Positions 640 through 46,500 of a stretch of 64,000 nt of DNA are shown here, in pieces. Made by a program: the position numbers and the translations under genes. The DNA comes from Spisula solida. Taxonomy: Eukaryota > Mollusca > Bivalvia > Venerida > Mactridae. A model generated the notes under the pieces. That model was not told where the DNA came from. It worked only from the letters and a program-made list of their open reading frames with translations, and did not search any database. The stretch is taken from contig OX365954.1 of NCBI GenBank assembly GCA_947247005.1, positions 2,992,001 through 3,056,000 on the forward strand. Reading direction: 5' to 3'. Numbering within the stretch: the first letter of the stretch is position 1; the number at the start of each line of letters is the position of its first letter.

Positions 640-3600
640 TTTGGTCCGGAGTTGGTGATTGCATCCTGTGGATACGATGCTGCTATAGGAGATGTTAAGG
701 TAAAAACATTGCGATAGGGACCCCTTGTGATAGCATACAGTATACCTTTAGTGCCCCAGTGTGACCGTGTATCTCTAGTGATATGTTTAGGCTGAACCCT
801 TACTCCTATGGATTCATGTGCCAATACTATGCATTGAACACTAAACACATAACTCTAAATTAGGGTATAAACCTTTTCATTGACACTTAAATCTACTGTA
901 ATATTTGCTTTTCAACTCTTTAGTTGTTCTTTGGCAAATAAAACATGGTTAGACTTTTTTTAGCCAATGCATACTTTGACGTCATAAACTTAGGAGCCAC
1001 ATTGTTTTACAATTTTCATAATGCAGTTTCAGTTTATTGACATAATTACCATTTCATAATGCTTTTACAACTCAAATTTGATCATTGCTTGTACCAAACT
1101 GTTTCAGGTTCTTGAGTTAGTATGATATATGTATCATGAGCAGCATAAAGCCAGAGTTTTGTTGTTGTTTTTTTATTTAGACTTTGGTGAATGAAATGCC
1201 TGCAGGAGGAGGGGAAAAAATAAAAACTTCCAAAGTATAGCTACCATGCTTTTGGTGATGGACTAGTTGTTCGATTAAAAGCAATCAACAACACTCAGTG
1301 TTAGGTTCCATAAACTTAAGCAGCCAATTTATCTTAAGACAAGTACACTGCACTGAAGCACTTATAATACAAGCTTTTCATTGATAAAATAATAAAACAA
1401 GGCAGGCACATTACCATCAAAACATTATTTGCAATTTCGGTTTTTCAAGTTTTTCAAAATATTTTAAAATGACAAAAATTGGACAGGAGGGTCTGAGTAA
1501 TGAAAAATCAAAGAACTCTGGCCTAATGGTCAGGACGGCAGTCATTTGTATGATTTTCTTAACTTTCAATGTTATTGTATTATGAACATGTAAGCTTTCG
1601 TCCAATATAATATATCTTTGGTGATAAGGAACTGTTTTGTGTTCAACTAATCTTAACAATTATTTCATAAATTATTAAAATGTTCAAAATGTGCTGGCTA
1701 TTAAAATGTATGCTCTATATTTGACTGTATACATCATTATTATTAGAATTGACCTTTGTACCTTTAAGCTTTTAAAATTTGCAAAAAACTTTACATTTAC
1801 TAATTTGGTGAATAGTGTTGAAAATATTTACAAAATCATAACATAAGTGTAGCATTTTTGTAATTAATGTTTTCATCATAATGCATTGATTAGCTGATAT
1901 TGTTGGGGATATTGATAAAACAGTTGTCTGTCCCACAGGTAACTGTATCATTAATGAAGAGTAAACAATTTTTTTTATAAAATTTATAATTTCTATGATA
2001 ATATAAATTTTAAAAAAAAATTTGTTTACTCTTTATCAATGATACAGTTACCTGTGGTCTGTCCCTCCATCTCTCCAATAAACATATTTATAGTTTGTAT
2101 TTCAATGTTATACAGGGAGAGATGATGGTGACACCTGCTGCCTATGCTCATTTCATACATATGATCAGTTCTCTAGCTGAAGGTAGAGTGTGTTGTGTAT
2201 TAGAGGTACGTTACAGTTTATAGAATTATGTTACTGTAAGGGATGACTGGTAGATAGTTTGTTTCATCCATGGACGGGTTCCAGTTCAAACCTCAGTAGG
2301 ACCCAAATCCTTTAAAAACATGCAGTAATTATGACTATTACAAGGATAGTGCTTGGATTGATTTGCCTAGTGTAAGGTTTAATGGATTTGTCTATGGCAT
2401 GGTACCACAACATTATATCAAATGTAGGTACAATAAATTGATACCTCAACACATATTCCATCAAAGCATTACAGTTTGTTACATCCAGTTGCTGAGATAT
2501 TGAATAAGGGACACTATAGTTTGATGAAATGCTGGAAATAGGTAACAGAAAATGTATGATTAAACTATGTAAATGTATATGTTGTACATTAATAAAAGAT
2601 GAAATTATTTGTGAATGAAGTTTCAGTTAGAAACGTGAGGTACGATTGTTTGCCATCACTACGTGTACTGTTCATATTTGTCTTCTGAGATCTAAGCTGT
2701 GCAAAATAAATCAAAACTACCCATCTGCCATTGCCATGCACTTTTATACCAGAGAATTTTAATGCTATCATATTTGTAATTCAGGGTGGATACAATATCA
2801 AATCATTGTCCGAGGGTGTTGCATTAAGTGTGAGGTCATTGCTAGGTGATCCGTGTCCTTTACTGAAACCATTAGCAGAACCTTCAGACAGGTAATGTTC
2901 TATCACTGTTGTTCTTTGGTTTTATTATTTCTTTATCCTAGCCACCGAGACCTCCCATATGGGTGACATCCAGAGAAGATTTTTTAAGTGTTTTTTCTTT
3001 AGAAATAAGGCATGATATCAAAGATGCCACTGTTCCAGAAGCATCCCTGGGTTTTACATGCCAATGTTAAGCATCATACAGTTTATAGCCTCATCAAAAA
3101 TTATTGTGAGTAAATCAAGTACTGCCTTACTTTATAAGGAGTTTTAAAATTCATATAGGCTATACACACTATCTATGAACCTCGAATATCTATCTGCCTG
3201 GTGTCTTAAAATAGGGATAGGAGTTGGGGAGTATTTGTACTCAGAAAGTAGGGGTTTCATATGTCGAATTGGCTAGTCCTTTAAACAAGTTGAATCTAGT
3301 TGAACCTATATTTAATGAACATTACTTCTACATACGTTAAAGGCCTTTATAATGATTTCAGTATAACAGAGATTATATTGAATGTTATCAAGTGTTTATC
3401 ACCTTGGCCTATATAATGATTTCAGTATAACAGAGAGTATATTGAATGTCATAAAGTGTTTATCACCTTGGCCTATATAATGATTTCAGTATAACAAAGA
3501 GTATATTGAATGATATCAAGTGTTTATCACCTTGGTCTATATAATGATTTCAGTATAACAGAGAGTATATTGAATGTTATCAAGTGTTTATCACCTTGGT

Positions 3601-4803
3601 TTATATAATGATTTCAGTATAACAGAGAGTATATTGAATGTTATCAAGTGTTTATCACCTTGGTCTATATAATGATTTCAGTATAACAGAGAGTATATTG
3701 AATGTTATCAAGTGTTTATCACCTTGGTCTATATAATGATTTCAGTATAACAGAGAGTATATTGAATGTTATCAAGTGTTTATCACCTTGGTCTATATAA
3801 TGATTTCAGTATAACAGAGAGTATATTGAATGCTATCAAGTGTTTATCACCTTACTGGAAGAGTTTATGTTATCAACCAAAGCTAGAGGAAGATGATGTC
3901 TGTGATTATGATGGTGTCAGCTCAGATCCACCCAAGTAAGTCAAACATTTTCATTGGATGTAACCAATCACATGGCTGTACAATGAACAGTACAAGCTCC
4001 CCAGAGCGACCCTCTCTAAAGCAAGAACCTCTCTACAACAACAAATTCAAAATTTCCCACAGATAATATTTACTTTAAATTTAATTTCTGTAGAGCAACA
4101 ACTTCGACATTATGGCCAATATTTGCAGATCCAGAGGGTGTTGCTCTACAGAGGTTGTACTGTATTTCCAAATTGTTAAAGTAGATTTCTGTTGTACTGC
4201 AATTGTTTTATAATGGAAATAAATTTATGCAAAGATCTGAATGAATGGTCAACTGGCAGGAAACACTTAGATATGATTTCTTGGATCTTTAAGTCTGTTG
4301 TTGTGATGTTTAAGATTGACTAAATTGAACATGAGATTATAGCTCGGAGAATTTGATGTGATCCTGACCTTTATGCATGAATATATTACAAGGTTCTTAA
4401 TAAATTCTGCGAGCAAATCATGCAATATCAGTCCTTTAGATTTGTGTTGGTATTACACCTCGAGTGTCTTCGTGGTATTTCCCGCTAAATAAAACATACA
4501 ACCTGGATTACAAATATAGGCAATATATCAGCTGTTAAATTATGCTAATAGAAGGTCGAGAATCGTGTCAAATTCTCTGCACTATACTAGCACTGTATGT
4601 TCATACCTTATCTATATATTCTATCTATCCTCCTGTAGGGAAGGTGTTGTATTTGAAAGCAAGGAGACGAAGCCAGTAGAGTATGATCTAACGTATATAT
4701 ATCCATACCAGGTGGAGGCTGATTATATACAAGCTGAGGATAAATGGAACACTGTGATTGATGGTTTAATACAGGAAACATCTCTATCTGTACCTCCACA
4801 TAG
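640..4803 (+). CDS. HDAC6: HDAC6 deacetylase domain 1 (C-terminal part) and inter-domain linker
   Basis: Five exons (640-699, 2116-2205, 2785-2891, 3810-3935, 4639-4803). They encode the block with the zinc-ligand Asp ([11 protein letters not shown]), then [11 protein letters not shown], the catalytic-Tyr motif LEGGYN and the closing helix [17 protein letters not shown]. The visible ligand Asp and Tyr are intact, so nothing here suggests an inactive domain 1; the His-His dyad lies upstream of the window. Exon 4639-4803 is an acidic linker with no recognised motif before domain 2. Exon 3810-3935 is the last unit of a 64-bp tandem array containing its own splice acceptor (see findings). Confidence 0.93.
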
Positions 4804-7800
4804 GTCAGTAACATAAATTCTCAATCTGAAATTATATTTTTATCTTACAGTCAGTTCGTCAGATGTTTGCATATACATGTATGTATCAAGAATTGAGTTG
4901 ACCAGTGAAAGGCTTCAGTTTTCATTGTAAAAACATTGAAAGTATTGCAAATGTTTTCAAAATCCAATGGTTTGGCTTGTAAACCTTCAACAAACAAATA
5001 GACGGCACATTCTCCACCCTGGCGTCTTGTCAGTTGCTGAAAATATTGCACTTACTACAGTTTGTATATCATTTTTTTGCTCCACTATTTGTAGAATAAG
5101 GGGTGCTAATGCAGTCACCCGAGCGTCGGCGTTGGCATTGGCGTAATGCTTATGTTAAAGTTTAGGTACAGGTTTTTTAACCTCATATATGTTCATAGTC
5201 CTTTGAGATATTACTTTCATACTTTGCATCACCATCATGACCCCAACCCATACACAGGGGTAGGTAACTCGATCAAGCATTTTGGTGAAATTATGCCCCC
5301 CTTTTTCAACTTCGAAGCCCCAACCTCTACACAGCAGTGGGTAATGCTGATGATATGAAGCATTTTGTTTTGAATATATAATGATTATACCATCCTAGCA
5401 TGGCACTGCGAATAGTGAAGTGTGATGTTCGTGGACAGCTCTTGTTAAAGTGAGCTGCTATGGATATATGCTGTTTTCATTTGCTAAAAGAAAAAATATA
5501 ATCCATTTGAAATGACTTTGATAAAGAAAGTTTTACATCTCTTTGAAATCAGTATGCTTTTTAGCTCACCTGCCACAAAGTGGCAAGGTGAGCTTTTGTG
5601 ATTGTTGTTTGTCTGTCGTCTGTCCGTTAGCTTTTTCACCGTTAACACTCTAGCACTCTCAATTTTGGTCAGTAGTTGTATCTCAATGAAATATAGGTCA
5701 AGTTCGAATATGGGTCATGTGGGGTCAAAAACTAGGTCAAGAGGTCAAATAATAGGAAAACCATGTTAACACTCTGGAGGCCACATTTTTGCTCTGATCT
5801 TCATTAAACTTGGTAAGTAGTTGTATCTCAATGAAATCTAGGTCAAGTTGGAAGTTGGGTCATGTGGGGTCATTAACTAGGTCAATAGGTCAAATAAAAG
5901 GAAAACCTTGTTAACACTCTGGAGGTCACATTTTTGCTTTAATCTTCATGAAGTTTAATCAAAATGTTTATCTTGGTGACCTTAAGGTCAAGTGCGAAGT
6001 TGGGTCATGTGGGGTCAAAAACTAGGTCAAAAGGTCAAATAATAGGAAAACCTTGTTAACACTCTGGAGGCCACATTTTTGCTTTGATCTTCATCAAACT
6101 TGGTTGGTAGTTGTATCTCAATGAAATCTAGGTCAAGTTTGAAGTTGGGTCATGTGGGGTCAAAAACTAGGACAAAAGGTCAAATAATAGGAAAACCTTT
6201 TAAACACTCTGGAGGCCTCAGTTTTGCTTTAACCTTCATCAAGTAAAGTCAATATGTTTATCTTGATGACGTTAAGGTCAAGTTCAAAGGCCATGTTTAG
6301 CAGGTGAGCGCCCCAGGATCTATGATCCTCTTGTATAGAAACACTCATGTTTTTGTCTGATGTTACCCAGTAAGTCTTCTGTTGTGCAATTTAGTCTTCA
6401 TGATTTTATGGGAATTAAAACTAGAGCTTCACAAGACATACGTCTCACAAATTATCATTGTTATATCATCATCTGTTTGTATACCTAGCTTTATTTGTGT
6501 ACCTTGAACAGTATATGAGAAATACTCCGAAATAGAAACTTGCCAAAAAAAATTAACATGACTAGGTACCGACCCAGACATGGCGGCTCTTATTTCAGTT
6601 GTTCCATTTTACATTAATTGTACCTATATTTTGTTTGTTATATTCCAGGACATGTCTGATTTATGATAAAGGAATGAAAGCTCATAAAGCTATAGACTAT
6701 GCAAAGTAAGTGAAATATTTGGTTATTGCTACTTCAACAAAACAATCTGGTGGCTTAATGTTGTACATTGTTTAAATGAGCTAATTAACAAGTATAGTTG
6801 CTATTATTGATTTATTTATTATAATTAAATAATAAAACAAGCAATGACGTATTACGATAGAAATATATGGCCTGCCATAAAGGAAACTGATGTGCCAAGT
6901 AACAGAAAAAGTTAAGATTCACATGGAACATATGATGACTTTAAAGGGACTGCCTCACGTATTGGTGTATTGCAAAAATAAAATTAAATTGTCAAATATT
7001 CATGTAATTTTGGTGTAGTTGCCTGTATATGCCATAAACAACCACATTGACATAAAAAATAACTTGGGAAACATCAGCATTTTGTAGTAATTAAGCATTT
7101 TTTACATGCAAAATTCTATAGGGTATTAATACCCTATAGAATTTGCACTACTATCACTAAAACTGCCTGAAATTTGTTTCCATTCGATGAAAATGAATAG
7201 CGAAATGCACCGAATACCTCACAGATGTTTCGGCTTTACTTTGTTGAAGTTACTTTGATCATTTGTGAAGTACATAATTCTAAAAGCATTTTGGCAGGAA
7301 ACTCTGCGATATTTTCAAAAAGAAAAATGCCCAGTGCCGAATATCAAGAGTGATTTAAATTGCTTATATGCCATAAATCTTTCATAAGCATCCACCAGTG
7401 GCGTTCTATTACATAAATACTTGGTAAGGTAGGAAAATCACGTCATACAAAAATTTTAGCCCGATCTGTGAGGCAGCACCTTTAAGCATATTGAATAGTC
7501 CAATACAAATTCTGCAGAATTGGCCAATTTAGGAAATAAATTTGATGGAATTACTGCATGAAATGTAATTTGAAGAAACTTTTAGTCTGCCATTTGATAT
7601 TGATATTATGTTATCATAGTGTGTATGACAAGCTTACTACAGACAAAATACTTACTAAGTTGAATATTGATACATTCATCCTGGCCCCCATGGCTGAGTA
7701 GTTGTAGTTAAGGCTTCTACTTGGGGAGCTGAAGGTCCAAGGTTTCAATAACAGTGGGTTCTGTTGTGGATAGTGAGGAGCCACCAGCAAAGTTAGATAA

Positions 7801-10596: not shown

Positions 10597-13500
10597 CATA
10601 TGATATAACATAATTACATGTTCTGCTGCTTACCTGGACAAACCAAAGCATTACACTGTACCTACTACATGTATTAAGTGAAATTATTTTTACACTATTT
10701 TATGACATTTTCTAAGCCAAGCTTTAATTGAGGAGATGAAGTTGACACAAGATTTCTCTGAGGAAAAGTTGATAAACTATGGGAAGGAATTTACTTTGCC
10801 TGATGAACAAATCCCTGTGTTTGTGAATAATGTAAGCTTGGTCGGGATTCCTTATAACCCATGTAACCAGGATACCTTGAAATATTGTCATAGTGTTACC
10901 ATGGTAACAATAATCAGTTATCCCCAACTGTATACAGTAGAACTTTGATGTCTGGAAGAGTTTTGCCTGGAAGACCCTTGAAACCTTGAATAGGTTTTGC
11001 AGTCCGGCAAAATGATGATGTACATTGTACTAGTAAATGGCACATGCATCGAACAGGTAGATTTCTCGAACGACTTTCTCTCCCCAAAAGCAGTTCCAGG
11101 CATCAAAGTTCTACTGTATATAACTCTAATAGTATTCACATGTTCAGACAGACAGGATGTGACCATTCTGCAGATCAATCTGAATGCGTCTATGATTTTA
11201 TGAAGTTTTAATTCATGTATTTATCATTTTTCACCATCAAATGCTGAAGGTTCTTGACAGCTATGAATTGTTGCCGACTTGCAAAATTGAGCAAACATTC
11301 GACAATTTCAAAATAATGATCTACAGTAGCCTCCTTGTTTCACGGTAGGAATCCCTTTACACCGCTTCTCAGTTCCGCCAGAGAATTGTTCTGTTTTCAT
11401 ATGACTCTGACAGAACTGAAAACCGATGTAACACTCGAAAGGAACTCATATGTCATGTATCCTGAGTTTCGCCAGAGTGTTACATCGGTTTTCAGTTCCG
11501 CCAGAGCCATATGAAAACAGTACAACTCTGACGGAACTGAGAAGCGGTGTATAAGGATACATATCGTGTTGCATGTAATGTTACCCTGTCATATTAACCT
11601 GATCCATATAATCTCTCGTTTTATACAGTTAACAGTTCAGTGCACAAACTATAGTAAAACTTGTTGATACCACTCCATTCAGTATTCATTATTATTCTTG
11701 GGGGAATAATTTTCATTGATTTTATCGATGAAATCGACCACAAAATGATATTGCCATGATTATTCAACCTCTAAAATATGTTACAAGGGTCAACCTTTCA
11801 GACTTAAAAATTTAATAGTCTAAAACTAAACTATTCCACAATAGTCTGTTTTTTTATTGACATGAAAATGGCTGTAAAATGACTTTGAGACAGTTAACCA
11901 ATGAAAACATGTTTTGTAAAAGATTGACCAATAGAACAAGAGTAGACAATAGTGGGTAGTCATGAAAACTAATTTTGAATTGACTGTAATGGTGGAGTTG
12001 CTATAGTTTATCCATACAGTCATGAAGAATCATGTTTACCTATTCAGAGCAAGAGATAAGCTGCATAGTGGGATAATCAAAACAACAAAATTACATGTAC
12101 AGAGTGACAGAGAAGCTGCGTATTGGAGTAATTACCCAATTAATTTTTCTAAAAACCCAATAGATTTTGATAGGAGGGAGTAAGAAAAAGCAAAGACAAT
12201 CTGAAATACCCAAATAGAAAATGGGGTTATAGTAAAACATAGTACATAAAAGATCATTTACCCTATGAGTTTTATTTATCACATAACCTGCGGTCCAGGA
12301 GTGCCGTAAAGCCATGCCGTAAATATTGTTCGGCACTCCCAGACTGTGTTATAAATATTTAAATTAGCTTGACGTGACGTTAGCCAATCCATGCATTGAT
12401 CCGCCAATGACGTCAGGATAATATCACCGTCGCCATGACGTTGATATCATTGTACCGCTGAATTTTGGCTGAAACATATGCAGCATACATCATCCTTTTG
12501 AATAATAATGTGCATTTTTAAAGGTTATGTGATAAATAGAATCTTACATTCGTGCTCATTACATAAGAGTTTTATTAAACTCATCGACAAAAATAATATC
12601 ATTTTGTCCACTCGTTTAATAAAACTCGTATGTAATGAGCACTCATGCAAGAGCCTCTATTTAATACTCAATTATACTTTGTCAAAACCCAAATAAAATT
12701 GAAACTCGGTGGTAAAATACCAATTAGACTAAAACCTTATCTGTTGCTCTGGCCTATTCTTGCCTAGAATGCTGTATCTATGCTTATTTGTAGTCGGAAA
12801 CATATTGAGTTTATGAAAGATCTTGAAGAAAAAGATATACCAGAATTGATGCACTTACAGAGGGGATTTAATTCTATTTTTCTTTCAAAAGTGAGTTTTT
12901 TTAGTGTTTTTTTTAGCTCACGTGTCACAAAGTGACAGAGTGAGCTTTTGTGATTACTCTTCGTCCGTCCGTCGTCCGTCCGTCGTCCGTCCGTCAACAA
13001 TTTGCTTGTGTAGACACTAGAGATCACAATTTTGGCCTAATCATTATGAAACTTGGTAACAATGATCATCTCAACAAAATCTAGGTCAAGTTCGATATTG
13101 GGTCATCTGGGGTCAAAAACTAGGTCACCAGGTCAAATCATAGAAAAACCTTGTGTAGTCACTAGAGGTCACAATGTTGACCTAATCTTTATAAAACTTG
13201 GTCACAATGATAATCTCAACAAAATGTAGGTCAAGATCGATATTGGGCCATCCGGGGTCAAAAACTGGGTCACAAGGTCAAATCATTGAAAAATCTTGTA
13301 TAGTCACTAGAGGTCACAATTTTAGCTTAATCATTATGAAACTTGGTCAGAGTGATCATCTCAACAAAATCTAAGCCAAGTGCGATATTGCGTCATATTG
13401 GGCCAAGAACTAGGTCAAATCACAGGTCTTGCATGTACTGCTACAAAAGGTGAGCGAACTAGGGCCCTTTGGGCCCTCTTGTTTCTTCATTTTACATAAT

Positions 13501-19500: not shown

Positions 19501-22500
19501 TTTCCAGATTTGAAATTTTCAGATTTGGAAACATTACCAATTATTGGAAAAGTTTACATGTATACTGTATTGTTATGATGTAAATAAGCAAATACATTGT
19601 TTTGTATTATTTTAGGGAGGGTGTAAAGTGACCCCAGCTGGCTATGGTCACATGACACACATGTTGAGTGGTCTAGCTAATGGCAGAGTTGTTGTTGTTT
19701 TAGAGGTAAACATCTTTGAAATTCCTTTGTAACTTTTTCAAGAAAATCTGTTGTGTCACTGTTGTAGTTGTTGATTATCAAATGATCACTCCACAGGTTG
19801 GTTGGATTATTGTTTTTGTGGTCACTCTTCGTCTATCCGTCTGTCTTCCACTTCTGGTGTGTCACTTAAGTTCATATTTTTGACCTATTTTAAATGAAAC
19901 TTGATCACAATGATCATCTTAACAAAATCTATGTCAAGTTTGATATTGGGTCATCTGGGGTAAAAAACAAGATCACTAGGTCAAATCATAGAAAAACCTG
20001 TGTACTCACACTGCGTAGACACCAAAGGTCATTGGTTCCAATGATCATTTCAACAAAATCTAGGTCATGTTTGATATTGGGTCATCTAGGTGAGGAGAAA
20101 GGCTCTATGGCCCTCTAGGTTTTTGTTGCTATGATTTAATGTATTTGTTTTCCTTATTAAAGTATTTCTATTTTTAGGGCGGTTATAACCTTGTATCTAT
20201 AGCAAACAGTATGGCTACCTGTACCTCAGTACTGTTAGGTGATCCTGTACCAGTATGGAGATATGAACAACCTCAGAATGTGTAAGTTCTCGTATAGTAT
20301 TTTACCCAAGTTCTAGTGTGCTTTACTACATGTTGTTAGTTTCCACCTCAAGAATAGAGATTAAAGATTAGATTGCTGGCTGTGTCATATCAAGTTCTTT
20401 TAAAATGATCCTGGTAGAGCTTGGATACTTGGTAATTGGTACACAAGGGTAGTCCTTGGATTGGTTGGCCCTGTGTCATGAAAGTGATAATGTAGTCAGT
20501 CTCCATAGTACTGAAAAACTGTCTGTGGGACTTTAAACCAACATTCAAAAATATCAACTTTGAATTGATATTCATGGAATTGATATGCATCCAGTATTGC
20601 AGTCTATGTAGCCTTTAAAAGAGCATTTATTCCAAGTACACTAGGTTTGTGTGTAGACTATTATTATACAGCTATCCATTAAATTGCCAAAAGTTATATA
20701 ACTTAGACAGTGTCCATGTTCAACGTATTCAAAATTGAAAAGATCATTACTTTCTACAGATATTCTACGTATGTAAGCTGAACAAAACTTATAAATGGTA
20801 CATGATCAAGTGCTTGTTTTTTGCTATGTACTTTATAGAACATCATTAATCACCCCTGTCGGTTTGCCCTCCTGTCATCCACAGGTTACTAGTAATGAGT
20901 GGCTGTTAGTGTTAGAGATTTGCAAATTTTGTGTGGATCAATGTATTAATTGCCAAAATTCACATTATATGTGTAAAGTGACTGTTTTAGTTCTGTTCTG
21001 TGTGCATGTACTTGCATACCTTCACTTTGTTGCTATGATGTAACTAGTTTAGCTTCATCTTTCAGGGCAGTGCAAGCTATCTGTGATGTACTAGATACTC
21101 AGAAACAATATTGGAAATCTCTCAAATTTAGAGGTAAGCAATTTTACCTTAAACTGATCGAAATAGATCGGTGTTATATGTTCTAGTTGTTACTAGTATC
21201 TATTCCTTTAAGTTTGTGCCTTCCTAAAAGATTGTGCATTTTAGCAAACGTTGATTGCAACAAAAACATGGTACATCTTGTCTGCGGTGAGTTTTGTCTG
21301 AGTACCAATTTTACTGTTTACATATTCACCGCTTCTGGTTTATGAAATTGGGAAACAAAAGTTGTTCTCATGAGCAAAAAAGGACTAATAGATAAATAGA
21401 AAAAATGTTCAATTTTATGTAACAAAACTTTTTATCGGCAAAATCCTTTCTAAGGGTTTTTAATGACATCATCAGTTTATGTGCACGAACATATTGCACC
21501 TGTTTAGATCAAGACTGTAGACTGCATGTAACTCAAGAGGCCAATTCTGTTTTCATAGTTTAATATTCAATTTGTGTTTGGAGTTTGTTAATAAACAGAG
21601 AATTGATCACAGATATTGTTTATCTCATGGTTGGTTCAAGTGGATTTGATTTTGTGCAGATACACCCATTTCAAATGTAAGAGGCGCAAACTTGTAGGTG
21701 TAGAGGCTACGTATTTAAAACACCTTGTCAAGCTCCACTAATACCACCACTTTAATTATATTGATATGTTGTGGACGTTTGCAATATTGTAATGTACCAA
21801 ACTTTCAAAGTGATAATTTTAGAACAAAAACAACCAAATCGCTATTATCACCACTTTCATGTATGGCTTTATATTGATATAATGGACATTATATTATGTA
21901 GAGAATTGATTAATTATTTTCAGTTGGTATTCCTGAGAAAGATAAGAAGGCTGTAGAAGATAGGTCAGAAGACTCAGTAAATGCCACCACTGCAAGGTTA
22001 GTACATGCATCAATCTATGTAGTAGTGTGTGGTTTAAATAATTATATTAACACCTGTAAATCACTTAATTTTCACGTAACTTTTATTTTGCTTTTTTTTT
22101 CGAAAATTTCAAGATTTTTTTGTTGACAATGTCCAATTTCCAACTTTGTATTGCAAAATTTTCTCGATAATAATGATTTCGCGTGTCAACATCCTGGAAA
22201 TATGAGGGGAAATAAAACTCTTGCAAAAAAAGTGATTTACAGTTCACAAATCTGATACAAAGCACATTATACATTGATCTATTCATTCGCTCAAGCACCC
22301 TGCCATTTTTTCAAGCAAATACTGTATTCTTTATTATGCTTTCCCCTTATTCAATTCCTGGTTCTGTTTTGTTTAGTGATTGTATTTTGTATGGTTTTGC
22401 CATGCTAAAAGATTGTAGAGTTTCATTATAGAATATAAGTTGGTAAATGAATTCTGGTAACTGTACTGAGAAATATTGACTGAATACTTGAGAGTATAAA

Positions 22501-25500: not shown

Positions 25501-28500
25501 TCCCTTCTGCTAGTTTATGTTTAGTTGTATTTTCTTTTTGTCTGTGATTCTAGCTTTGATTTGTAGAGATATATAAAAAGGTTTGTAGACAATATTTTAA
25601 AACAGGATTTGTTCAATTTCTTTCTACTTGAAATCATTAATGCTTAATGCTGGTTTTAATCAATCTGTTACTGTTGTTTATTTTTGTATTGTGCGTTAAC
25701 AACGACAACAACAATGAATTAGTGATGTATGGAATCCTCGCCATCAAAATTCACAAAAAACATTGAAATGGTTCTACGACAAGCTGCTAGATTTACAACA
25801 AACAGATTCAGAAATACAAGCAGAGTAACTGACATGATAGATCACCTGAATTGGGAAAGCCTAGAGTCCAGACGTCAGAAACAACAACTCACGATGTTCT
25901 ACAACATCGTCCACAACAAAGTAGACATCCCACCTGACAAGTACCTCTAGACAGCCAGATCCATGCCCAGGGCCCCTCACAACACCAGATTTCTACAACA
26001 TCACGCATCTACAGATACCTACAAATACAGTTTCTTCCCACTGACCATCCCTGTGTGGAACAACTTAACAGCCCCTGTGGCTGAGGCTCCTTCCTTGACA
26101 TCTTTCAAGAAGGAGCTTGCTAAACTCTCATTCTAAGGGGACCACTTCGCTCAGATATGATGTACAGTCATGTGATAGGTGTTGAGCTATGTCAGCCAGG
26201 ACTCAGTCCCTGTCACCGCCACGGAAGCTGGACAGGTCAAGTGCCCTCCATCGTCTTGAACGAGTCTATTCTTCAATACTTTTTCTATCACTCTTTCCTT
26301 TTCTATCTAGCGCACCGTTAAATTATTGTCAAGTATGACAGCTTAACGTATTATGTAGATTTAGATTTCGATGTGTCAGTAATATAAACTATACTTTAAT
26401 ATTATTTGACATTGCCAGTGTAGTGACAGAACTGTGTACCCGGAAATACGGGTGTTAGTAGTTACCCAAGATGCCGCAGGATATTCTTGGAGGCCACAGC
26501 GAGCAAGTTCAGCGGGTTGTAGTACCCCTGATGTTGGAGAGTTCAGCGGGTTGTAGTACCCATGAATGAGAGTTATGGTATGTACCGGTATTGTATTTTA
26601 AGTATATACATGTGAGAAGCTGGTGTTGGGCGAAGGGCAGTGTCAGCTCCAAAATATTGGGTGGGAGGAGGAGAGATTTGATAGTGTGCAGCTTTTCCTT
26701 GACGAAGGAGCAGGGTAGGTACTGCACGACGCGGAAGGGATTGCTGGCGGTCGTTAGGCTTACAAGGCAGTTTAGACACTACCTGTTGGGTAAACCTTTT
26801 ACAGTTAGGACGGATCATTAGAGTCTTAGGTGGTTGATGGGGTTCTACGAACCGCAGGGTCAGCTGGCGAGATGGTTGGATGAGCTGTCTCGGTATAATA
26901 TGGTGGTAAAACACCGGGCTGAGCGCGAGCACTGGAATGCAGATGCGCTGTCCAGGATGCCAGCAAGTGCTGGTCGGTGCTGGAAGCTGTGTTGGTGTGC
27001 GTCTAGGTAGTTTACCCTGTGGGGGGTGTGGGTACGGTAAGGAGGCTCTTGATAATTGGGCCTCATTCTTCTCAGAATTAGATGACGTGCCATTGGCTGC
27101 TAGGCCAAGGTTAACCTGTGAACTGGAACAGTGCTCATCAGAAAGTGGAGAGAAGGATCCGGACGGTTTCTAGAGACTGGGAAATGATTGCGTGCGGGTC
27201 TCCATGCGTTGAGCAGGAGATCCTAAGGGAGAGGTTGTACAGGGTGTTCATTGTGGGAACAGGAGGTGTCCAACACAGAGGAGGCTGATCTGAGGGGGTG
27301 GCAGTCGGCCATCGACATTATTCCGTGGGCAGTCGAGGAGCCTTAGGTTTGACAGAATTGGTTAGTGTCAACATCGTGACTACTGCATATAAAGGACAGG
27401 CACAGCAGATCAGGCTGATGGTAGTACTGGGGCAGTTCCCAGGAAGGTCCCTGAGTCAAGGACTGGTAGGCCCAGTCAGGGGAACACTGCATTTAGTACT
27501 GGGGGCAGTACTGGGCAGTTCCAAGGATAGACCCTGATGGAAAAAGGGGACAGTGTGTACACTGTGGATAGTGTGGAAGGTAGTACTGGGGCAGCTCCCA
27601 GGATAGACCCTGAGGTATTGACTGGATGGGCAGGTCAAGTGAACACTGCAGATCATGGGGAGGGTAGTACTGGGGCAGATCCAGGATAGACCCTGAGGTA
27701 TTGACTGGAAGGGCTGGTCAAGTGAACACTGCAGATCATGGGGAGGGTAGTACTGGGGCAGATCCCAGCAGAGACCCTGTTGTGTTGACTGGTAGGGCCG
27801 GTCACGTGAACACTGAAAATCATGCAGAGGGTAGTACTGGGTTACTTCCCAGGAAAACCCAACTCCAAGAGGCTGTACCTCCGGAGGGAAGCTTCGGGGC
27901 TGCAGTGAGGTGGTTGAGTAGTTTGGTGGTTGGTGCCGTGAAACCAGCTTGGGTTAGGTACGGCATATCCGTGGAGGTTTGGGGCCGTGAAACCAGCATG
28001 GGTTTGGTCCAGCATATGCATGGAGGTTTGGAGCCGTGAAACCAGCGTGGGTTCGGTCCGGTACGTGCATGGAGGTTGGAGCCATGAAATCAGTGCAGGT
28101 TCGGTCCGGCATGTGCATGGAGGTTTGGGGCTGTAAACCAGTGTGGGTTCGGTCCGGTACATGCGGGGAGGTTGGGGCCGTAAAACCAGTGTGGGTTCAG
28201 GCTGGGAAGCGAGGAAGTACCAGTTCCGGAAAGAGTCTGCAAGAATCATGCGAGTTTAAAGTGGGGAGGAGTGTAGTGACGGAACTGTGTACCCAGAAAT
28301 ACGGGCGTTAGTAGTTACCCAAGATGCCGTGGGGCATTCTGGGATCGCCCTCTTGAGCAGCGGCGGCTATGTTGGAAGGCCGTTGTGAACTGACGTTGTG
28401 GCGTCATGACTAGCAGAATAGTCCCAGACGACTGATAAGGTAGGAAACCTTGCTAAATACCATTTCCCTGTGTGTACCTACTGTAAAAACCATACCAAAA

Positions 28501-31500
28501 ACAAAGAATTATCAAATTTATATGATCTTTGCCAAAAACTATCGAATATTGGTACCCTTTTACAAAAAATAAGTACATGTAGTAGATATTTACAAAAAAT
28601 ATTTACATTTTTAAACCAAAAGTTGTTCATGGTTCATTAAACAATTCCAATACACACAGTTTTAAAACCAGCTGAACTGCAAATATTAAAAAAGCCTCTT
28701 AGAGGGACAGCAAGCTTGTCTAGGTCATTGATGGAAATAGATCTTTGTATTTACATAATTATGTGAATATTTCACACATTAAAGAAATAAAGTTGCCCGG
28801 AAAACCAAAAATTACTATATACAGTAAAGATAAACAATGTAATCTATGAGTCATTTCTAACTAAATGCAAGGCAGTTAAATAATGTAATCTGTGAGTCAT
28901 TTCTAACTTTGTAAGGCAGTTAAATAAATTTACAGTATACAAAATCATTACATATGTCTTGAGGTGTGTTGTTTCTTTGTCAAACTGAACATGTATAATG
29001 ACACAATTTCATGGAAAACCAGACTTATTCTAATATTACTAAGAATTTAGCGTAAAATATTGATTTTTAGGAGTAATTTAGTTAGTACTTATATTCTGTT
29101 CCCAATGTACATTTCTGTCATGTCTAATATTGTATTAGAAGATTCTGGTGGTCCTTTCTGAGCATATATATAAAGTTGATCTTTGTGTCTTGTATTTTAT
29201 CAGAAGTGACAGTGGTGTTCAGTGCTTAAAATATTCATAGGGAAACCTTGGTTGCAAGTTGATTACCTTGATTAAAGTATGTATGGTTTAGTTTCAATAT
29301 CTCTTATCTTGAGTATTGTGTAATTACCACATTTTGGTTTAGTTTTAGTTTCAATATCTCTTGTCATTAGTGTTGGGTAATAATGATGAGTTTCGATGAT
29401 AATAATACTTTGTGATCAGATGTCCCTAATAGGGGATCACAATACGGTATGTTGATAAATCACTATGTTTCTCAATGTTTCGACCTAATGAGGTCTTCTT
29501 CATGAGATGTAACACGTTATGCATTCATGCTATCAATACTGCAAAAGTATGTAAAGCAATTGAGTGTTACACCTCTTGAAGAAGACCTCATTAGGTCGAG
29601 ATATTGAGAAACAGAGTGATTTATCAACATACATAATAATACTGTTTATGTTGACTGATTGCTTCTTTTACTGGTTTCCGTAATTATGAAAATGTACAAT
29701 ATTCTGAAATTATATTTCTATGTCCAGAATACATGTATATTTCTCTGGTCAGTTGTCAAATGTCAATGACAGGCTTTTTGGGTAGTATTTGACAAACATT
29801 TATTATAATAAATCGGTCATTCAATTTTAATTTCAACCATTTCCAGCGACATAAAAAAATTTGAACTTTGTCTACTATTATTTCATTTATTCATAAACTG
29901 GTTTTGTAATGTATCAAGAGAAATTACTGACTCCACGACCATACATTTAGAATGTATCCTCATGCTGGGACAGGTTTCACTGTATTAAATGATTTCACAG
30001 CGCTGATAGTTGTTTGTACTTGAATATATACATTATCATGTTGCATGAGTAATAATGATGCAACATTCACCAGAAACTGGCTGTGAGTTGTGATGTTGTA
30101 TCTATAGTCAATATTGATTCTTTTGGAACAATCTTTCTCCAAGTTTGAAGCGATTTTCGGATCAATAACACACAGCAACAATTACATGACTTGTTGCTTT
30201 TTGGATAATATAAGTTTAAACTCTGTTCTAGGTTAGACCTACTGTCTGTAAACTCTGTTCCAGGTTACACCTACTGTCTGTAAACTCTGTTCCAGGTTAC
30301 ACCTACTGTCTGTAAACTCTGTTCAAGGTTACACCTACTGTCTTTAAACTCTGTTCTAGGTTACACCTACTGTCTGTAAACTCTGTTCTAGGTTACACCT
30401 ACGGTCTTTAAACTCTGTTCTAGGTTACACCTACTGTCTGTAAACTCTGTTCTAGGTTACACCTACTGTCTTTAAACTCTGTTCTAGATTACACCTACTG
30501 TCTGGTGTACATTGTACCTCCTAATTTGAACTTGCTTTAAAAATACTTCATTGACTGCATAGGATGTAGATATGCTGGGGGATTAATTATGTTCAAAATG
30601 GTGTTTATTTTTGCCTTCTAACTCTACTATGGAATGTTGGGCAATGATATGGTCTGCAATTTCTTTCTTTAAACCGTTATTGAGAGCTGTGTTTTAACTA
30701 TTTTTAGCTCACCTGTCACAAATTGACAGAGTGAGCTTTTGTGATCACTCGTCGTCCGTCCGTCGTCCGTCCGTCTGTCCGTCAACAATTGGCTTGTGTA
30801 GACACTAGAGGTCACAATTTTAGCCTAATCTTTATGAAACTTGGTCACAATGATCATCTCAACAAAATCTAGGCCAAGTTCGATATTGGGTCATCCGGGG
30901 TCAAAAACTAGGTCACTAGGTCAAATCATAGAAAAACCTTGTGTAGTCACTAGAGGTCACAATTTTGACTTAATCTTTATGAAACTTGGTCACAATGATC
31001 ATCTCGACAAAATCTAGGTCAAGTTCGATATTGGGTCATCCGGGGTCAAAAACTAGGTCACAAGGTCAAATCATAGAAAAACCTTGTGTAGTCACTAGAG
31101 GTCACAATTTTGACTTAATCTTTATGAAACTTGGTCACAATGATCATCTCGACAAAATCTAGGTCAAGTTCGATATTGGGTCATCCGGGGTTAAAAACTA
31201 GGTCACAAGGTCAAATCATAGAAAAACCTTGTGTAGTCACTAGAGGTCACAATAATGACTTAATCTTTATGAAACTTTGTGACAATGATCATCTCGACAA
31301 AATCTAGGTCAAGTTCGATATTGGGTCATAAGGGGTTAAAAACTAGGTCACAAGGTCAAATCATAGAAAAACCTTGTGTAGTCACTAGAGGTCACAATTT
31401 TGGTCTAATCTTTATGAAACTTGGTCACAATGATCATCTCAACATCAGCTAAGTCATGCTCGATATTGGGTCATCTGGGGTCAAAAACTAGGTCACTATG

Positions 31501-34500
31501 TCAAATCATAGAAAAAGTTTGTGTAGTCACTAGAGGTCACAATTTTGACTTAATCTTTATGAAACTTGGTCACAATGGCCATCTTAACAAAATCTAGGTC
31601 ACATTCGATATTGGGTCATCCAGGGTCAAAAACTAGGTCACAATGTCAAATAATAGAAAAGCTTTGTGTAGTCACTAGAGGTCACAATATTGGCCTAATC
31701 TGTATGAAACTTGGTCACAATGATCATCTTAACAATATCTAGGTCAAGTTTGATATTGGGTCATCTTGGGTCAAAAACTAGGTCACATGGTTAAATCATA
31801 GAAAAACCTTGTGTAGTCACTAGAGGTCACAATGTCGACCTTATCTTTATGAAACTTGGTCACAATGATCATCTCAACAAAATCTAGGCCAAGTTTGATA
31901 TTGGTTTATCTGGGGTCAAAAACTAGGTCATTAAGTCAAATCATATAAAAACCTTGTGTAGTCACTAGAGGTCACAATGTCGACCTTATCTTTATGAAAC
32001 TTGGTCACAATGATCATCTCAACAAAATCTAGGCCAAGTTTGATATTGGTTTATCTGGGGTCAAAAACTAGGTCATTAAGTCAAATCATATAAAAACCTT
32101 GTGTAGTCACTAGAGGTCACAATATTGGCCTTTTCTGTATGAAACTTGGTCACAATAATCATCTCTACAAAATCTAGGTCAAGTTCGACAGGTGAGCGAC
32201 CTAGGGCCCTTTGGGCCCTCTTGTTTGCAAATATGTTGTGTAAAGAGAAAACTAACACATTCAAGTCAAAATTAAAGGCAAGATAGCCAGGCCTCTGCCA
32301 TACCCTCATAGTGATGGATATTATCAGGAATGGGGTGTTGAGATTGAAGAATATAAGTTGTAAGAACTTGTTTCATAGTCAACCCAAAACAAATAGTATA
32401 ACCAACATTTAATATCATATGTATTGTCTGACCAGATTAAACTGAGACTCTGATCAAAATCCGTATACGCCCGGCTGTACTCGGCTGTTTTCGATTTGTA
32501 TGTTTATTTACTACATGTGCAGTAATCTCTGCATTTATATCACAATTCAAAAGAAAAATCAAGCAGGAATAGTAGTGCAGTGGAAACGTTTGCGCCTTTA
32601 ACGCCAGTGGTCGCAGGTTCAAAACTTACTGTAACCTTTTGACATTATTATTTTTACTTGAATCAAGGGGATTATGTTTAAAACTTTCCGTACGGTCTTA
32701 TATTATTTGGTCTTTAATTTCGGTTTTGCAATATTTCCAATTGCATATTTCTTTATTATAAGTACATGAACAATGTTTCAACGACTTGTCCATTATATAT
32801 TTAATGTATGCCTGAATTGTGTAATGGATATGTGAACATAGGGATGATTATAATTCACGAATAGCATACTTGCATATAAAGAAAAAAAAAGTTAAAAAAA
32901 ACTATTGTGTTTGCCTCGAACCAGATACCTTGTGGTCTACAAACTGCACACTCAACCACTGAGCCATCGCATATTGTTATCTAGTAGCAACTCAATACAG
33001 CGGCATATAGCGATAAATATAATTATATGTTTTAATAACTTGGGAAATTTCCGGAGTTGAACGAATTATGCAAGGAGTCTCAGTTTAATCTGGTCAGACA
33101 ATACATACACACATTGTAATCCAGAATTAAAAACGTTCAACTTTCAGTTAGTAGTGGAGATACTGACACAGAAAACACAAGTTCACATACAGACGAGCAA
33201 ACATCAACTGTAGATAACATGGCTGAGCAAGGAACCAGTGGTGGTGCTGAAGGAGGATCGGACAAGTTCAGCTCTCCTAAGGAACTTCTAGATTATTATG
33301 ATAAAAAGGTTTGTTGTCATGTAATCTTTGTAGGTTGAGTAAATGCAGGGGTCCTACTGAGACATAATGCCCAATCCTGAAAATGAGTCGCAAGTCTGTT
33401 TACTTAGGTGCCATTGGTATATACCCTTACACCAAAATCTCAGTTCAAACATTGTTCTATTGTTAAAATCCAGCTTATGAAATTTCAAATAACCATAACC
33501 TTCTCAATTCTTTGAATTTGTAGGACCCCTTGTACGCCTGGTTTATACTAATTTATTTTAGGTCAATTGTTCATTATTGTCATTTGTTTGTGCTCGACTG
33601 AGACTGTCACAAGTTTGTGGTCATTTGTTTATTTCCCTGCCTGATTGACCAATGACCTCCCAAGAGAAAAGACAGTTGTGTGATACAATGAACATGAAAA
33701 TTAGTCGGAAAATTTATTAATTAACCAGTATGTGATGTTGTGTACTTTTTGTTTCAACTGGAACCAAGTTTCAACAGTTTTATGGGACTGGTTTTAAGGT
33801 ATCGGGTCAGAACAGCCCACTTACAAGAAAGGCCCAGTATAAAGTACCAGAACGACCCAAACTCGAGGTGTACCGAAAGGGCCAACTTTCAAAAATCAGA
33901 GTTTACAAACAACAATTATGCTTGAATAATATAAATATTTGAGCTGTTAAGTGCAGGAAACAAACTATACCTTAGTATTTTTCAGTTCATTTCGTAAGAA
34001 CACATCATCAAATCGTGATTAAACTTTATTTATTAACTGGGCCTTCTTGGTTAGTGGGCTGTTCTGGTCAATGAGCTGTTCCGACCCTGATTTGGTTTAA
34101 ACCTTGAATGTTTTTAAATAAAATGTCAATGTTTTGTGTCGTTTCCTCCTGTACTGTTACAAATATTTCTACTTGTTGCTGTATTTTATTGCAGGGTGTT
34201 CCTGCCATGTATGCTGTAGAACCTCTGAAATGGTGTGAACATTTAGAACAAGTTACACCGTTACCAGAGAAAGAACTGGACGTAACTGATCCTTGTGAAG
34301 ATTGTCAAGCCAGGGGAGAGAACTGGGTCTGCTTGATTTGCTACAAGGTAATCTTGAGCCCACTTGATTAGCACAGCAGAGTGCTAGAAAATCACACCAA
34401 ACATTTGGTTAAATTCAGAGGTTTAGGATTCCGGATTTCACAGTTTACAGATGATTACTTACACCAAATGAGAGTTGGGCCCAGAATCTTTTAACTGCTA

Positions 34501-43500: not shown

Positions 43501-46500
43501 GCTAACATTTCCATCTCATCAGAAGCAGTTAGATCTTGGTAAGCATACTTTGAGAAATCGTACCCTTTCTGAAAATATTTAGATTTCCATATCAAATATT
43601 TATTTTCATTTGGAAGAAATCAGTTCTAAAATATTACATAATACTGATACAAGTTTTGAGTTATCATTTGTCACAATTACAATATTACTTTTGATATGGG
43701 ACAATGTAATACTACTTGAAAACTATCTAGGCTGTAGAACTGAATGTAATGCTTCCAGAGACTCTCAAGTGACCATTTGTAACAACGTAACAAGTTTAAC
43801 TTTAAATCAATTTGATTATGGGAAGTGGTATTCGTTACACCTGTTTTGAATGCATGCATGCAAAATATAAGCTTAACCATTAACAGTATAACAATGCTAC
43901 TGTAACGCAACATAGGTAATATATACAAGGACTTACATTTTCAGCTTTAGTATGTGAGAATCTGGCATCTGTAAGGGGAATCTCTTTTAACATGGTCCTA
44001 CTCATCCGAGAGACGAAACTACGATCTGTGATACCTCCTGTATATGTGGGACTACCTGATAAACCCTCATCATTATCACCATTAGGTATACCACTCAACT
44101 TGGGAACAGGAATGCCATTCTCCATTCTAGCACTGGCAAGTTTATTATCACTAGAAAATACACCCGAAGACGGTGGAAGACAGTTTTTCACACCTTGACT
44201 TGAGTTAGTTCTGGAATGTGTTCGAGTAACACCACTGGATTTCATATTATTGTTAGCTCTGCTACCACTATTTGGCCTGCTGCCTGAGCCAGGCCGAGTA
44301 CCACTGTTAGGTCGAGTTCCACTGTTAGGTCGAGTACCACTGTTAGGTCGGGTCCCACTATTTGGTCTAGTACCACTATTAGGCCTACTTCCACTACTGG
44401 GTCTAGAACCTTGTCGGTTAGGGTTCCAATGTTTATCATCCCCACTATCAGAAGAAGAATCATCATTAATAAAATCTTCCTCCGGGCGTGGTCCTCTTGA
44501 CTTGGATCCTTCCTTTTTCTTATGTCTGCTGCTGGTCGAATGAGTGGCCTACAAAAATTGCATAGATGGGAAAATTATCACAGCTATTGAAGTACTGTAT
44601 ATAAGTGGATATTTTTGCAGGTCTCAAAATTAACAAATTTTTGACAAATAGCATGTGGAAATATCAGTGTTTCTTTCTTTCTTTGTAGGGCGAAATATAT
44701 TAGTAAGTCATGTGATTACTCCAAAAGTTGTAATCAATTATTACAATTACAAGTAACGATTACCCCATGTCTGATGGCGGATGACCTGTTTGACAGATCA
44801 CCCCACATCCAACATATGCAAAGCAATATAACCCATTTCTTCAACGTAGGCACAAAAAGGTCATAAGTAATTTCAAAACTAACCACACAATATTTATAAC
44901 AAGTCATTAAGAATTGCCAGCAATACAGAAGTCCACTACCAGTTTGAAGCCATTTTCAATGTTTCTGTTGCCATAGCAACCACAATTTTTGTCAGAATCA
45001 AAATATCATAATCCCCTTATTTTCATAAACCTAGCTTGGAAACTGTTTCAGTAATTTCAGGATACAGATTTTTTACGGACAGACGTTCTAACGAAACAGT
45101 ATTTATGTGGCTACAATAGGGAATGAAGAAACGTAAAAAGAAAATTCTACTATTGTTTTAACTATTTTCAACTGGTTTGTCCATAAAAAGTAGCCATGTA
45201 AGTACCCGTTTGTGGGCGCGGACTGTCTGACATATACATTTTAAACACCTAAAGACGGTATCAGATAATATGTGTAGATTTTCAAGGATCAATACGCCGC
45301 TAAAAGGGCAAAAACTTGTAGACACTTCGAGTAACTGAGGTAGACTATACCTTGTTTACAGCAGATTCGGTTAAATACTGAGATGGTGATGCATTCTTCT
45401 GTCGAGGTGCAGGTTTAGGTTTGGATATAAACAAGTAAGTACCATCATGATCCTCCCTGTAATATATAAAGTGTTTATCAAATTATTGTAGTGTCAACCT
45501 TACTTGAAAGAACTTGCCATACTGGCTTTAGCTTACTGTTTAAGCACATTCACATTACAAATTCTACCTTTTAATGGCAGGCATCAGGCTGTTACACACA
45601 CTGTACCAACTATTTAAAGTAAAATTACAAGCATTTTTTTCCATGGAATAAAAACCAAATGAACCAATCTGTATATTAATGTTAATTCAACTTAATTGAT
45701 TTTAAATTTAGTAAATTTATGACACCATGTGAGTGAAAAGAAAATTAATGTAATCATTTTTAATCCAAGTCCCCGAGTTAAAATGTTTGTGAATATTTGA
45801 AAGAGACTGATATTGATCTTTAATTTATACATCATACCCAGAACCAGGCCCCGATCTCCCGAAGCATCTCAACGTGAGCTAATCTCATCTCAAATATTGT
45901 CAGGTGTCTTTGAGGTAATTTCCATGAGAGGGTGAGCTCGAAATTTGACATCACAACACAGAAACATCATTCTCATTTCAAGAGCTCAAAAATCAGATCT
46001 ATCAAAAATTATGACTCTGATTTGAGCAAAATCTCAATTTGAGTTGAGATTTTTACTTGAGATGCTTCGGGAGATCTGAGCCAGAACTCACCTATCACTC
46101 CCATCCTCCTGATCATCTTCAATTTCTTCATCCGAACTGTCTGGATTACTCAACCTCATATTGTTGCGCAATATTTCTATTACATCAGCAACTGACTCCT
46201 CCCCTTCTGCTCCATCAGGCTGGTAATTGGACGGTCTGTATTCTATATATAGATCATATATATACAGAAAACAGTTTTAGAACAATACTTTTCCACATCA
46301 TATATATTCAATACCCTCTCTTGGCAAATCTCCACTTAGAGCTCATGTGGGCACTTCAATACCCTCTCTTGTCAAATTACCACACTAAGAGCTCATTTGG
46401 GCAATAAACAAGGAAAAGGTTTTCGAAATACATATTTGAGAAAAAAATCAAACTATTTAAGTAAACACTCAAAATTTGGGTGTAAGTACAGACTTAAGGC

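Follow-up and report, generated by a model that had tools for sequence, protein, structure and literature searches.

Tandem repeats that span an intron-exon boundary have been described in amphioxus under the name of mirages, with BflGb6, BflGb9, Adh3 and TnC as examples, and similar repeats lie over splice sites in lancelet PGBD5 (PMC3087553, PMC3902484). Adh3 data and globin RT-PCR are reported to suggest that splicing is regular despite the repeats (PMC3087553), and the Adh and TnC mirages are reported without aberrant mRNAs (PMC3902484). In human segmental duplications, repeats at such boundaries can generate alternative splicing (PMC2812944). A further class of tandem units, each with a splice motif, is formed by the dual-specific arrays of polyubiquitin UBC, in which AGGT sites delimit whole monomers and are used stochastically (PMC10809524). 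In the literature searched, where most subscription journals lay outside coverage, the name mirage was met only for lancelets and no mollusc mirage was found.

The array studied here lies in the HDAC6 gene of a clam-like bivalve. The window, i.e., the whole 64-kb stretch of DNA analysed (G000:C12:2992001-3056000, from a genome of 931,988,947 bases in 36 contigs), contains most of this gene on the + strand; it starts about 7.7 kb upstream of the window, where the 5' exons lie, and ends about 35.76 kb inside, with a weak match for the last exon. Its identity was established by matches to solved HDAC6 and by exon-by-exon matches to Mactra HDAC6, and the best-ranked HDAC6 protein among the 120 of 7815 matches listed is that of Mactra antiquata, with which the best-aligned 59% of the query shares 84% identity. 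Comparison with Mactra located the exons of domain 1, the linker, domain 2 and the ZnF-UBP, so that two deacetylase domains and a ZnF-UBP are found in one gene. The earlier note, made from the letters of the window, had already named the gene as HDAC6, and this is borne out by the matches to solved HDAC6, by downstream exons for domain 2 and the ZnF-UBP, and by the 5' exons that precede the window. The exons and the intron that frame the array are as follows:

2785 to 2891, + strand: HDAC6 exon preceding the array, 107 nt, ending AEPSD, phase 2 at its end, donor at 2892
2892 to 3341, + strand: native portion of the intron preceding the array
3810 to 3935, + strand: real HDAC6 exon, 126 nt, ending DPPK, donor CAA|GTAAGT
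4639 to 4803, + strand: next HDAC6 exon, its phase matching that of 3810-3935
21066 to 21133, + strand: domain-2 exon starting at the equivalent intron position, where no array lies (Tandem Repeats Finder, TRF; Mactra comparison)

The exon at 3810-3935 aligns over its full length with Mactra HDAC6 at 77% identity, the adjoining exons fit in phase, and the sequence from 3810 can be aligned to all 27 database HDAC6 sequences examined, with small gaps in some. Domain 2 repeats the exon layout of domain 1 (60, 90 and 104 nt versus 60, 90 and 107 nt), and its acceptor at the equivalent place, 21066, backs 3810 as the real exon start. Within domain 1, two neighbouring 60-nt phase-0 exons were observed, at window positions 640-699 and about -317 to -258 (L003:9683-9742), which encode alternative versions of one active-site stretch, one of them ending SCGYDAAVGCAE; they look like mutually exclusive exons. 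Among relatives, 20 of the 28 listed proteins were readable at this stretch: seven carry both versions in tandem, ten the C-type only and three the D-type only. The Asp of the D-type exon is, we presume, a zinc ligand.

The array itself consists of eight units, in each of which the closing 20 nt of the intron are followed by the opening 44 nt of the exon:

3342 to 3853, + strand: whole array, eight tandem 64-bp units
3342 to 3405, + strand: unit 1, decoy acceptor, exon-like from 3362, preceded by native intron
3406 to 3469, + strand: unit 2, decoy acceptor, exon-like from 3426
3470 to 3533, + strand: unit 3, decoy acceptor, exon-like from 3490
3534 to 3597, + strand: unit 4, decoy acceptor, exon-like from 3554
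3598 to 3661, + strand: unit 5, decoy acceptor, exon-like from 3618
3662 to 3725, + strand: unit 6, decoy acceptor, exon-like from 3682
3726 to 3789, + strand: unit 7, decoy acceptor, exon-like from 3746
3790 to 3853, + strand: unit 8, with the acceptor that opens the real exon at 3810

TRF called the repeat at 3348-3853 (period 64; 7.9 copies; matches, 97%), and the acceptor motif TAATGATTTCAG, which ends the 20-nt intron part, is present in all eight units at a spacing of exactly 64 bp. A chance repeat was ruled out, as a 35-base core of the array gave eight matches in the window at up to 3 mismatches against none expected from 100 shuffles. The array occupies a single place in its own genome, at 100% identity. 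The eight exact copies described earlier are thus confirmed in number and spacing, although the units are near-identical rather than exact, with 8 of 64 columns variable, and the exon part assigned to each unit, put at about 46 nt, has to be shortened to the 44 nt given above. As claimed, only the eighth unit runs on into a complete exon. The statement that the intron side is alike in all eight holds within the 20 nt and fails beyond them: acceptor 1 follows native intron, whereas acceptors 2-8 follow the exon-derived sequence of the preceding unit. For acceptors 6, 7 and 8, the upstream 64 nt are identical.

The locus thus shows tandem, minisatellite-like units that span an intron-exon boundary and copy its splice site, the boundary being set by the proteins of relatives. 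As in amphioxus BflGb6, the repeat comprises the 3' end of the intron and the 5' part of the exon; BflGb6 has two haplotypes of six and three units, compared with eight units in one assembly here (PMC3087553, PMC3902484). The 64-bp unit falls within the 10-72 bp given for Adh3 and below the 150-160 bp of BflGb6, and the host gene is a mollusc HDAC6, whereas these published mirages are in lancelet genes (PMC3087553, PMC3902484). The human genes share minisatellite expansion at an exon-intron boundary; there the paralogs are recent and the repeats are linked with new introns as well as alternative splicing (PMC2812944), whereas HDAC6 is conserved and has a single clear exon in frame. An array of the UBC type (PMC10809524) was rejected: AGGT is absent (0 of 8 units), and a unit length of 64 is not divisible by 3.

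Use of any decoy would have the same consequence. When the exon ending at 2891 is joined to acceptors 1-7, all seven give 18 residues (a split Ser, 14 exon-like residues and W-x-I) followed by TAA TGA, the TAA being supplied by the acceptor motif of the next unit; acceptor 8 leaves the frame open. The about 17 codons before TAA TGA that the earlier note had predicted therefore become 18 residues, and translation of the joined exons likewise agrees with its claim that HDAC6 would be cut short after deacetylase domain 1, since the stop is located just behind that domain. By coordinates, acceptor 8 yields an exon of 126 nt and acceptors 7 to 1 yield exons of 190 to 574 nt. A protein search for the truncated product scored none of 38 candidates; it admitted 119-380 aa and detected no HDAC6 at all, and the full truncated protein would, by analogy with Mactra, measure about 430 aa, so that this search hardly bears on the matter.

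Splice signals were compared using a matrix built from 20 other HDAC6 acceptors. The array acceptors score 0.3-3.4, the 20 others score 0.1 to 16.4 in a leave-one-out analysis, and 18 of these 20 exceed 3.4; the array acceptors are weak, though within the range of the gene. An earlier score that placed the array below all 18 other acceptors was set aside after the leave-one-out analysis, as the same 18 had trained its matrix. With this smaller matrix, some other AGs outscore 3810, e.g., one before 3159 and one 8 nt inside the exon; the exon boundary is accordingly placed by the proteins of relatives, not by acceptor score. A TTTAT motif with its A at -28 precedes acceptors 2-8, with no AG nearer than -35, and acceptor 1, in native intron, has just two matches, one at -47, from which an AG at -21 separates it, and one at -13. 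This gives a hint that the coding exon may now rely on a branch point made from exon-derived sequence, and a hint only, since the motif is degenerate and several ordinary HDAC6 acceptors have no such match at the usual distance. Donor-like sites inside the units reach at best 3.3 compared with 10.2 for the real donor, in a matrix whose scores are rough because one of its 18 donors (near 34348) is misplaced, and with such low values the units are unlikely to serve as small exons. Local RNA folding predicts low accessibility at all eight acceptors, with units 1-3 slightly above unit 8; the idea that RNA structure hides the decoys was rejected, as the last acceptor has no folding advantage.

Divergence among the units was used to trace their history. 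Three of the eight units (4, 6 and 7) match the consensus exactly, one base separates each of units 5 and 8 from it, and three bases separate each of units 1, 2 and 3; unit position 3 is C in units 1-3 and T in units 4-8. The private base of unit 8, at position 44, is a C that makes the codon GCT (Ala) in the coding copy, and the decoys encode Val (six of seven) or Asp (one of seven). In 27 database sequences, 23 of them from named molluscs and four without a name, this codon is Val in 24, Ala in two (Mya and Pinctada) and Thr in one (Mactra). The Val kept by most decoys thus looks like the older residue, and as the decoys hold the common residue of relatives while the coding copy has Ala, the units appear to be separate, older passengers. 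This pattern may correspond to that of amphioxus mirages, in which the inner units evolve in concert and the boundary unit is set apart, the comparison resting here on one haplotype with identical units 4, 6 and 7, a private base in unit 8 and three differences in each of units 1-3. In the exon-like parts of units 1-3, three of five private changes alter an amino acid; five are too few to test, and the variable decoy units look unconstrained. Purifying selection on the acceptor motif, identical in all eight units, was not argued, since with variation confined to 8 of 64 columns a stretch of 12 unvaried ones is unsurprising.

Considering these data together, we think it likely that the array is a minisatellite mirage in a clam-like bivalve HDAC6 that is mostly silent, with acceptor 8 mainly used and decoy RNA probably decayed. 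The array anatomy, the stop produced by every decoy (seven of seven), the alignment with relatives and the domain-2 acceptor support this reading, as do the Val kept by most decoys and the frequency of arrays, which makes one overlap in the gene unsurprising by chance; its exon-definition and decay steps draw on general principles of splicing, and its silence on the amphioxus analogy. The array would have arisen when a 64-bp piece across the HDAC6 intron-exon boundary was duplicated in tandem. The spliceosome would mostly splice the exon that ends at 2891 onto acceptor 8, since the exon so obtained measures 126 nt and has a good donor at 3935 to define it, against 190 to 574 nt for the exons from the decoys. 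If the branch point lay solely upstream of the array, the first AG would be favoured; the coding exon is therefore expected to use one inside the array, and this sequence would serve as codons in the real exon and as intron elsewhere. RNA spliced to a decoy, having an early stop before many later junctions, would probably be removed by nonsense-mediated decay, and copy number should drift without much consequence for the protein.

Several observations weigh against a mostly silent array. The identical 64 nt upstream of acceptors 6, 7 and 8 mean that the acceptor itself gives 8 no advantage, exons of 190 or 254 nt are of ordinary size, the array acceptors are weak and outscored by some nearby AGs, and folding leaves the decoys unhidden, with units 1-3 even slightly more accessible than unit 8. 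The same upstream identity, together with the stop from all seven decoys, would fit leaky decoys, by which acceptors 1-7 capture a constant share of the transcripts and decay then removes it, the array acting as a passive dampener whose effect depends on copy number, so that the output of full-length HDAC6 drops as copy number rises. The human duplicated genes, in which boundary repeats can change splicing (PMC2812944), speak for such leakage and against silence; the amphioxus mirages of the same anatomy, which reportedly leave regular splicing undisturbed (PMC3087553, PMC3902484), speak the other way, and we regard leaky decoys as unlikely. A further reading, in which the array is a brake on HDAC6 tunable by copy number, each unit adding a near-equal decoy that leads to decay and array length varying in populations with an effect on phenotype, appears very unlikely; if it were true, more units would mean less full-length HDAC6.

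An assembly error, in the eight units or in their number, has a precedent in one amphioxus mirage that was aberrantly assembled in a draft genome (PMC3087553). Here, the private variants in the units, the assembly into 36 contigs (15 of the 16 with sizes displayed measure 44-69 Mb) and the similar arrays elsewhere in the genome make an artefact highly improbable, although the exact unit number could be wrong or haplotype-dependent. The earlier note had proposed either a buffered hazard or a switch. The former fits the amphioxus mirages, for which regular splicing is reported (PMC3087553); the latter lacks support here, since the changes in units 1-3 alter residues as unconstrained sequence would and a fragments-only search found no truncated product. 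A regulated switch, in which tissue- or stage-specific decoy use yields a stable HDAC6 whose sole deacetylase domain is domain 1, draws on the stop directly after that domain and is nonetheless scarcely credible, given the decay predicted from the many later junctions, the apparently unconstrained decoys and, as hardly a test, the 119-380 aa search that recovered neither this product nor any HDAC6.

The genomic setting was also assessed. Arrays with units of 20-100 bp in at least five copies number 11 in the 64-kb window and seven in 190 kb elsewhere (19 stretches at positions chosen blind); the window is therefore rich in minisatellites. Random placement of the five gene arrays over 35.2 kb with 23 exons gave 0.30 expected overlaps between a unit and an exon edge and a probability of 0.27 for at least one, and placement of ten gene arrays of any copy number gave 0.60 and 0.46, in a model that ignores selection against overlaps and in which a few exon borders are approximate. 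One such overlap in HDAC6 is unsurprising by chance (P about 0.27). Among other repeats of the window, a 21-bp unit, ATATCTGCAGGTGTGTAGTCT, forms two arrays 325 bp apart (57175-57627 and 57952-58275, with 21.6 and 15.2 copies) and includes CAGGTGTGT, so that the AGGT motif is present in it. Tandem arrays with a 145-bp period lie at 5665-6242, 13005-13417 and 30793-32188, and another contig also has an array of this period (L017:5803-6659). A 222-aa open frame on the minus strand at 43880-44548 includes a tandem repeat of 18 bp that keeps the frame and is SGTRPN-like (TRF array 44291-44410); it probably sits inside a coding exon. Open frames at 26570-27010 resemble the RNase H region of Ty3/gypsy-type retrotransposons.

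By analogy with amphioxus, the HDAC6 array is probably a harmless example of a mirage, and it would extend mirages from lancelets to a mollusc. It also constitutes a natural test of 3' splice-site choice: with the same 64 nt upstream of acceptors 6, 7 and 8, any preference for 8 would have to stem from position or from the sequence that follows, not from the acceptor itself. Such an array may, moreover, be a raw stage for intron lengthening or the recruitment of new exons, as proposed for the amphioxus globins (PMC3087553).
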